64,000 bases of DNA from Oerskovia jenensis (GTDB lineage: Bacteria; Actinomycetota; Actinomycetes; Actinomycetales; Cellulomonadaceae), in the NCBI RefSeq assembly GCF_016907235.1, contig NZ_JAFBBO010000001.1:372001-436000 (forward strand), written 5' to 3'. Numbering within the stretch: position 1 is the stretch's first letter; the number at the start of each line of letters is the position of its first letter. Positions 54,553 through 60,807 of the stretch are shown piece by piece. Under the pieces are notes generated by a model. It saw only the letters and a program-made list of their open reading frames with translations, had not been told where the DNA came from and did not search any database. Made by a program: the position numbers and the translations under genes.

Positions 54553-54626
54553 GCCCCGGTAGCCCAACCGGCAGAGGCGTTCGGCTCAAACCCGATCCAG
54601 TGTGGGTTCGAATCCCACCCGGGGCA
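54553..54626 (+). tRNA. tRNA with Leu anticodon CAA, class I variable loop
   Basis: Cloverleaf: acceptor GCCCCGG/CCGGGGC, discriminator A (54626), short 3-bp D stem GCC/GGC, anticodon loop CTCAAAC (CAA, 54587-54589) on a stem with 4 pairs plus a T-T mismatch, 5-nt variable loop CCAGT, T arm GTGGG-TTCGAAT-CCCAC. Bacterial tRNA-Leu normally has a long class II variable arm; this one does not. It still has A73. Encoded 3' bases are CCC, not CCA. It may be a diverged or non-canonical tRNA. Confidence 0.85.
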
Positions 54627-54916: not shown

Positions 54917-55348
54917 TCACCCAGCAGGGGGTTCCGGTGAGGAGGTGCTCGCCGACACCGGCGGGTCCCTGCGCACGATGCGCGCTCCTTCGCCGATGGT
55001 CTTCCTCTGCCGGGCTGGCGCTACCTTCGCTGCAGCCCGGGTGTGGTCATCAGGCTCGTCTCCCAGGTCGGTGATGACACCTGCTCGGCGGCCGGAGTCG
55101 CCGGTGACAGCGCGGGCGGCACCGAACTCACGCTCGATCATCGTCGCGACCGTCGTGCGGAACGTGTGCAGCCCGACCCACTCCCGGTCGGCCTGGGAGC
55201 GAATGTCGCGCCGGGCACGGCGGAGACTGTGGGCGAAGCCCCCGTTTCCGTTACGGGTGACGAACACCGCGTCGAGTTCGTTCTCGCACAGCTGCTCGCG
55301 CCGGCGGCGTAGCACCCCGACGGCGAAGGACGGGATCGTCAGGCTCAC
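54917..55348 (-). pseudogene. Tyrosine integrase remnant
   Basis: The translation LTIPSFAVGVLRRRREQL, AVFVTRNGNGG, RRDIRSQADREWV and HTFRTTVATMIEREFG follows the C-terminal half of actinophage-type tyrosine integrases, including the HxxR box. N-terminal domains with the first catalytic Arg and Lys are missing, and after EREFG the frame loses the GHS...Y part, so it cannot be active. It lies 290 nt from the tRNA with its 3' end facing it, as expected for an element inserted there. Confidence 0.7.
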
Positions 55349-60241: not shown

Positions 60242-60474
60242 GTGAAGTACTCCCCCGAGTGAGTGCGTCGTTGGTCGCTCCATGAAACGTAGAGCATGGC
60301 CAGGGCCACCGGCACCACGGCAGAGAATGCCCACGTCACCACGCCCGGCAGGAGCACGCTCCACGCGCCGACACCGGTAGCGCTGGCACGCGACCGTGGG
60401 CGCCGCGACAGGTGCTTGGCGGGCTCGCCGGTCAGGGCACGGGAGATCTCCCGGTCGCTCGTCCCGCTGACCAT
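60238..60474 (-). CDS. Small membrane protein (first of pair)
   Basis: A 78-residue protein MVSGTSDREISRALTGEPAK..., with one or two hydrophobic segments (WSVLLPGVVTWAFSAVVPVAL) and a charged tail SDQRRTHSGEYFT. The ATG at 60474 lies at the end of a heptanucleotide array; further in-frame ATGs within that array would add MGDGRWA repeats. Couples to the next gene through GTGA. Function unknown. Confidence 0.5.
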   Translation of the reverse strand: MVSGTSDREISRALTGEPAKHLSRRPRSRASATGVGAWSVLLPGVVTWAFSAVVPVALAMLYVSWSDQRRTHSGEYFT

Positions 60475-60511
60475 CGCCCATCGCCCATCGCCCATCGCCC
60501 ATCGCCCATCG
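60471..60511 (-). repeat. Heptanucleotide array at a gene start (GATGGGC)n
   Basis: About 5.9 perfect copies (CCATCGC on the plus strand, GCGATGG on the minus). Every copy carries an ATG in a different phase, the last being the start of the small membrane gene. The rest of the 60475-60807 spacer has a 9-bp palindrome (GGAGTCCGG/CCGGACTCC, 60637-60659) but no gene. Confidence 0.9.
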
Positions 60512-60807
60512 GACGAGGATCGCCGGGCATCCGGGAGCGCGGTCGGCCGAGGCCGCGCACGACGAGAACGCGCTCGCGCGCTCAGGGCTCTCGACGTCCC
60601 CGGTGCGCCACGCACGAGACGAGCTCGAGAAGCACCGGAGTCCGGCACTGCCGGACTCCCTGCCCACCCCCTCTCTCGACCTCCGGTGGACAGAGAGATC
60701 GACTTTCGGTCGAGGCGCACAGGCACGCGACGCGAGAGCGTGGAGGGTGCCGACACGAAGGGGTGCCGACGCCGACACGAGCACGCACCCCGAGGAGTCG
60801 CTGCACC

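Follow-up and report, generated by a model that had tools for sequence, protein, structure and literature searches.

Transfer RNAs for leucine are presented as class II or long-armed molecules in the available text of PMC9976931, PMC7609411 and PMC4033280, and reviews, in the parts accessible to us, describe cytosolic tRNA-Leu as having a long variable arm. In E. coli, the tRNA-Leu species with the anticodons CAA and UAA are both class II. According to the accessible part of PMC9976931, leucylation in E. coli depends on A73, A15-U48, G18G19, A20a and contacts between the D and T loops, and tRNA-Leu variants without the long arm are still active with E. coli LeuRS. SerRS recognises the long arm together with G73 (PMC7609411, available portion). 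The human mitochondrial tRNA-Leu(UUR) has no long variable arm, reads UUR codons, has A73 and A14 as its main determinants and carries mismatches in the anticodon arm (available text of PMC9976931). In Mycobacterium tuberculosis, tRNA Leu-2, Leu-3 and Leu-5 are the ones named as having a long variable loop in the accessible part of PMC11541572, which would fit the other tRNA-Leu of this species being class I.

The tRNA studied here, from Oerskovia jenensis, is like the mitochondrial one in these respects, but its gene lies on a bacterial chromosome and its D and T loops are conserved, whereas the mitochondrial tRNA is organellar and presumably of separate ancestry. It lies at 54553-54626 on the plus strand of the 64,000-nucleotide stretch that we analysed (hereafter the window; G000:C1:372001-436000), in a single-contig genome of 4.45 Mb that is 99.92% complete. 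ARAGORN reads the anticodon as CAA and calls the gene tRNA-Leu(CAA), and the Rfam model RF00005 matches the same interval and strand with 54.4 bits for a gathering score of 29, which places it among the tRNAs. The class I tRNA-Leu model R1 gives it 92.3 bits, the window tRNA being one of the 45 rows from which R1 was built.

The gene covers tRNA positions 1-73, ending on the discriminator base A73 (54626) with no encoded CCA. Read from the sequence, the acceptor stem has 7 bp and no mismatch, and the T arm is intact. In the D arm (54562-54578), a stem of 3 bp (10-25, 11-24 and 12-23; 54562-54564 with 54576-54578) is closed by a C13.A22 mismatch (54565 and 54575), and the arm includes the letters A14A15, G18G19 and A20a (54573). 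The anticodon arm (54580-54596) has a U27.U43 mismatch at its outer end and the loop CTCAAAC, in which the anticodon CAA (54587-54589) reads UUG. The variable loop, CCAGT, has 5 nt (54597-54601), with U48 (54601) facing A15 (54567); this loop, the 15-48 contact and the D arm were assigned from sequence, alignment and conserved pattern. The initial annotation had reported the CAA anticodon, the short variable loop, the 3-bp D stem, the U27.U43 mismatch and A73, and all of them are borne out by the sequence, ARAGORN and RF00005. It had also listed the D stem among the oddities of this tRNA; the short stem is real but no defect, as pair 13-22 is likewise broken in the genome's class II tRNA-Leu genes.

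With its 5 nt, the variable loop falls short of the 10 nt or more that define a class II tRNA in the available text of PMC7609411. Nor is the molecule an allo-tRNA as PMC7609411 describes these in its available text (8/4 or 9/3 arms with a long variable arm), since it combines 7/5 arms with the short loop. Compared with E. coli class II tRNA-Leu(CAA), it shares the anticodon, A73, A14A15, G18G19, A20a, a 13.22 mismatch and U48, but lacks the long variable arm, has C13.A22 and carries AGAGGC where E. coli has AGACGC. What is expected functionally of a bacterial tRNA-Leu is present, namely an anticodon for a leucine codon along with A73, A15-U48, G18G19 and A20a. We propose that it belongs to a family of class I tRNA-Leu of phages and Actinomycetota, recognised by a UAGCCCAA-GG-AGAGGC D arm, or a covarying form with C13.A22, a short variable loop, A73 and a leucine anticodon, each of which is found in the window tRNA.

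Judging from sequence, we consider it very probable that this is a functional leucine tRNA reading UUG and built on a class I body. A LeuRS of the E. coli type would read A73 and the hinge between the D loop and the variable region (A15-U48, G18G19, A20a), all of which the window tRNA has; with A73 and no long arm, it would offer none of the features sought by SerRS. Since the letters that serve as determinants for E. coli LeuRS are present, we infer normal charging by the resident LeuRS, with the tRNA being expressed, charged with leucine and used on the ribosome. It would thereby replace the class II tRNA-Leu(CAA), as its class I UAA sister would do for UUA. Charging by LeuRS through A73 had been one of the initial proposals, and the retained determinants, the lack of any other CAA tRNA among those found, the mutual exclusion of the two classes and the use of UUG in leucine columns, all detailed below, point in its favour. 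Against this explanation stands the conserved U27.U43 mismatch, which could make the anticodon stem less stable.

The genome contains 53 matches to the Rfam tRNA model, for all but one of which (L070, a 30-bit match) ARAGORN gave an anticodon, and among these 53 the window tRNA is the sole CAA tRNA found. The tRNA-Leu(UAA) is also a single-copy, class I gene; the class II genes are those for CAG, UAG and GAG, the last in two copies. The listing of the other tRNA-Leu genes that the initial annotation had recommended thus brings up no second CAA-reading tRNA, and UUG would otherwise be readable only through wobble by the UAA tRNA. This bears on a mainly non-ribosomal use, such as aminoacyl transfer or a regulatory role, which had also been raised and for which one might invoke the class I body and an anticodon arm that is the same in 18 genera. 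A tRNA that is needed for UUG, apart from UAA wobble, and whose distribution tracks codon slots does not support such a use, and we regard it as extremely unlikely.

The slots themselves were compared across the phylum. The class I model, run on 396 genomes, gave strong matches in many of them and only weak ones in others; its scores separate the classes imperfectly, with a mixed zone at about 68-76 bits that holds both true class I Leu (for example in G080, G428, G416 and G363) and tRNA-Lys (G358). By sequence patterns, 148 Actinomycetota genomes included 22 with class I CAA and 33 with class I UAA, and the class II form of the same anticodon was found in none of them (0/22 and 0/33; Fisher p <1e-9 for each anticodon, on counts that ignore shared descent). 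The class II form alone was present in at least 87 genomes for CAA and at least 62 for UAA. Neither form was among the matches listed for 39 (CAA) and 53 (UAA) genomes, where the class II pattern misses bodies without AGAC and where 15 genomes with class II matches beyond those listed, none of them a class I genome, were counted as neither. A further class I match, in G278, was no tRNA by ARAGORN and was excluded (23 becoming 22), as was a class II row on G254:C2 that looked spurious.

A class II Leu model applied to 16 genomes likewise revealed no slot with a read anticodon that held both classes; in one of these genomes, G158, the anticodon of the class I match was not read. The two classes combine in either direction, with class I UAA beside class II CAA in G056, G107, G221 and G269, and class I CAA beside class II UAA in G066, G423 and G300. 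All five anticodons are class II in G183, G226 and G092, with no class I form found. Within a single genus of eight genomes (g50), presumably Streptomyces-like to judge by its UAA tRNA sequence, six have class I CAA and two class II CAA. The occurrence of both solutions in one genus amounts to a natural experiment on the role of the long arm.

The class I form is well conserved. The region of the window tRNA was matched in 52 of 59 genomes, its own included, and among the best 30 of these 52 loci the anticodon arm is identical letter for letter in 18 genera and the whole tRNA body in six of those. A search with the class I UAA sister gave matches in 59 of 59 genomes, the weakest of which are probably other tRNAs; in both searches, many low-scoring matches (28-nt stretches, or about 45 bits) probably represent something other than class I Leu. 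Over 45 diverse relatives (alignment A1), the cloverleaf is paired in 98.4% of 900 cells, with pair 28-44 broken in 3 of the 45 rows, and double-sided changes number 195 against 42.6 in shuffles. The invariance of the D-arm letters in A1 is partly a selection effect, as the first search pattern fixed them; rows obtained with R1 or looser patterns are less bound by this selection. Fold covariation and the recurrence of the anticodon arm in 18 genera rule out chance or a pseudogene, and what had been taken for a possibly diverged tRNA is instead a member of a conserved family of its own, found also in phages.

Bacterial loci yielded 225 distinct class I Leu bodies, and 221 of these could be numbered. 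A73 and C13.A22 are each present in 220 of the 221, A15-U48 in 217 and G15-C48 in two, and the D-stem pairs 10-25 and 11-24 covary across the set. G15-C48 in place of A15-U48, the pair needed by E. coli LeuRS, was observed in two class I CAA tRNAs of one genus (L322 and L340).

A pattern scan of named genomes returned at least 119 stretches with the class I form. Those listed include Corynebacterium, Mycobacterium, Nocardia, Gordonia, Micromonospora, Streptosporangium, a Bifidobacterium MAG and Acidimicrobiia MAGs, together with a few from MAGs labelled Chloroflexi, Acidobacteria, Planctomycetota, Rokubacteria and Deltaproteobacteria. In the 80 of these stretches numbered L106-L185, every patterned place was called a tRNA. 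Class I UAG was seen in other Actinomycetota genomes (L413-L416, L420 and L421) and class I CAG in L428, so the short body is not confined to UUR codons. It looks as if the short form substitutes for the usual class II tRNA in many actinobacteria, and many phages carry it as well. On one Chloroflexi MAG contig (L218:6870-7550), class I Leu tRNAs with the anticodons GAG, CAG, UAA and CAA lie close together, and this cluster may be a mobile tRNA array.

If the window tRNA carried another amino acid, UUG would be mistranslated or reassigned in this lineage. Such an identity could draw on the global alignment, in which the body comes out nearer to certain class I tRNAs of its genome (Arg, Thr, Lys) than to the class II Leu tRNAs there, although the latter scores are depressed by the gap at the missing arm. 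The use of the codon speaks against it. In the LeuRS genes of 16 class-I-CAA genomes we tested 77 TTG codons, and all 33 that fall in conserved columns (at least 70% conserved among other codons) correspond to Leu; the CTG control gave Leu in 373 of 395 cases, and TTG in the LeuRS of 14 other genomes in 24 of 27. Similarly, PolA from 14 genomes of the same family has 27 TTG codons, with Leu in 22 of the 23 conserved columns and Val in one. The LeuRS and PolA genes of the O. jenensis genome itself contain no TTG codon, so this test rests on relatives. In addition, class I and class II forms were never found sharing a slot in the genomes we examined, and the window tRNA retains the leucine determinants known from E. 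coli. The mistranslating tRNA of another identity that had been suggested initially is thus unsupported, and we consider it very unlikely. We know of no reassignment of UUG in bacteria. A screen of more than 250,000 genomes makes no mention of one in the available part of its text (PMC8629427).

As to the enzyme, the trimmed LeuRS frame of the 16 class-I-CAA genomes measures 854-896 aa in four and 954-975 aa in twelve, and both size ranges are also found alongside class II CAA, so no special enzyme type stands out. The O. jenensis genome does have a second LeuRS gene (G000:C1:522840-525445, equal to L412:12840-15445), which might be thought to encode a dedicated enzyme for class I tRNAs. This copy, however, is split between two frames, by mutation or sequencing error, and at E 1e-150 its first piece is matched in 5 of 7 same-genus genomes and 3 of 12 from other families of the order, but in none of the 16 genomes searched from the rest of the family, and class I CAA occurs in several of these. 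Within the set of 16 class-I-CAA genomes, only that of O. jenensis gave a second LeuRS match above the cut-off. We accordingly see next to no chance that a dedicated second LeuRS charges these tRNAs, and favour the resident enzyme. The matched sequence has no internal stop in G003 and G006 and one in each of G002 and G005. The second LeuRS gene is situated about 10 kb from the two tRNA-Leu(GAG) genes.

The class I form is also carried by phages. The class I CAA tRNA of one genome (G130) matched 293 phage records at E 0.01, 108 of them over at least 80% of the query, and some of the remaining matches are halves of attachment sites. In the stretches examined, class I tRNA-Leu with the anticodon CAA, UAA, UAG or CAG occurs in phages of E. 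coli, Erwinia, Pseudomonas, Enterococcus, Lactobacillus, Streptomyces, Mycobacterium and Synechococcus. Across at least 120 stretches of viral contigs, ARAGORN called short-bodied Leu genes for UAA (at least 77), CAA (at least 32), UAG (at least 30), GAG (at least 9), CAG (at least 4) and AAG (at least 3), as well as at least 35 long-bodied Leu genes, all in loci picked by the class I pattern, whose counts give no rate. A73 is present in 152 of the 153 scorable short-bodied Leu genes among the viral matches listed.

The phage genes of wV8 (UAG), phiEa104 (CAA), PPSC2 (CAA), Bacchae (UAG and UAA), Moab (CAA) and ET08 (CAG) are like the window tRNA in D-arm type, short variable loop and A73, but differ from it in being phage-borne, in including further anticodons and in being annotated, where an annotation is given, as plain tRNA-Leu. 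Those of wV8, phiEa104, PPSC2 and Moab and the UAG gene of Bacchae obtain higher scores with three bacterial class I forms than with the class II CAA and UAA tRNAs of E. coli, in a comparison that includes the gap for the missing arm. That phages keep such tRNAs suggests that ordinary LeuRS accepts them. The idea of a known lineage variant, also considered initially, holds in so far as phage records label these genes tRNA-Leu, but our literature search, made mostly without subscription papers, found no description of class I tRNA-Leu in bacteria or phages.

In a tree of 123 rows and 70 columns, with the variable region removed, the class I rows cluster (3 changes against 40.9 when shuffled), and phage and bacterial class I rows are intermixed. 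Class I rows stand on one side of a branch in 0% of 200 bootstrap trees, and the starred branches force at least two changes. The presence of the same form in phages suggests a mobile type of tRNA that takes the place of the isoacceptors already resident in a genome. As a tentative model, which we rate as plausible but somewhat short of probable, phages and integrating elements would have spread class I tRNA-Leu, which would have repeatedly displaced the class II form slot by slot (UAA, CAA, UAG and sometimes CAG), both in Actinomycetota and in other groups; such swaps would have been helped by the role of these genes as attachment sites, and perhaps by selection for evading nucleases or toxins directed at long-armed tRNAs. 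If charging is as we infer, the armless variant constructed in vitro to demonstrate that leucylation can do without the long arm has a natural counterpart, on which many actinobacteria rely. This would have a bearing on tRNA identity, on gene-finding programs that take the arm as the sign of isotype and on the question of why phages carry tRNAs.

The initial annotation had also referred to the gene as an integration site. Within the window this is unsupported, the 25-nt 3' end of the tRNA being present there in a single copy, but in the same-genus genome G003 the 3' half of the tRNA recurs as a direct repeat about 6.4 kb from the gene (L621; G003:C15:8400-15500). The interval contains transposase domains (rve and HTH_21) and a sub-threshold HTH_17, and the seven ORFs scanned have no tyrosine integrase domain. 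In mycobacteria, attB-11 overlaps tRNA-Leu-CAA and has a core of 44 bp for Omega, according to the available text of PMC10865867, which is silent on the class of the tRNA. The phage LittleE (Omegavirus) matches the 3' 44 nt of the G130 class I CAA tRNA at 100%, beside a tyrosine integrase; this G130 match fits the length of the Omega core at attB-11. Both the G003 repeat and the attB-11 overlap might be expected of a relic tRNA whose sole remaining use is as an integration site, yet the covariation of the fold, the same anticodon arm in 18 genera and the lack of another CAA tRNA among those found make such a relic scarcely credible, and we retain the functional leucine tRNA as our reading. Close to the tRNA, a tyrosine recombinase remnant was considered for the ORF at 54917-55348 on the minus strand and is not claimed here, with nothing in Pfam and one PHROGs match at E 0.23. 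Further along the window, at 60400-60600, a short tandem repeat is visible in the translations of overlapping ORFs.
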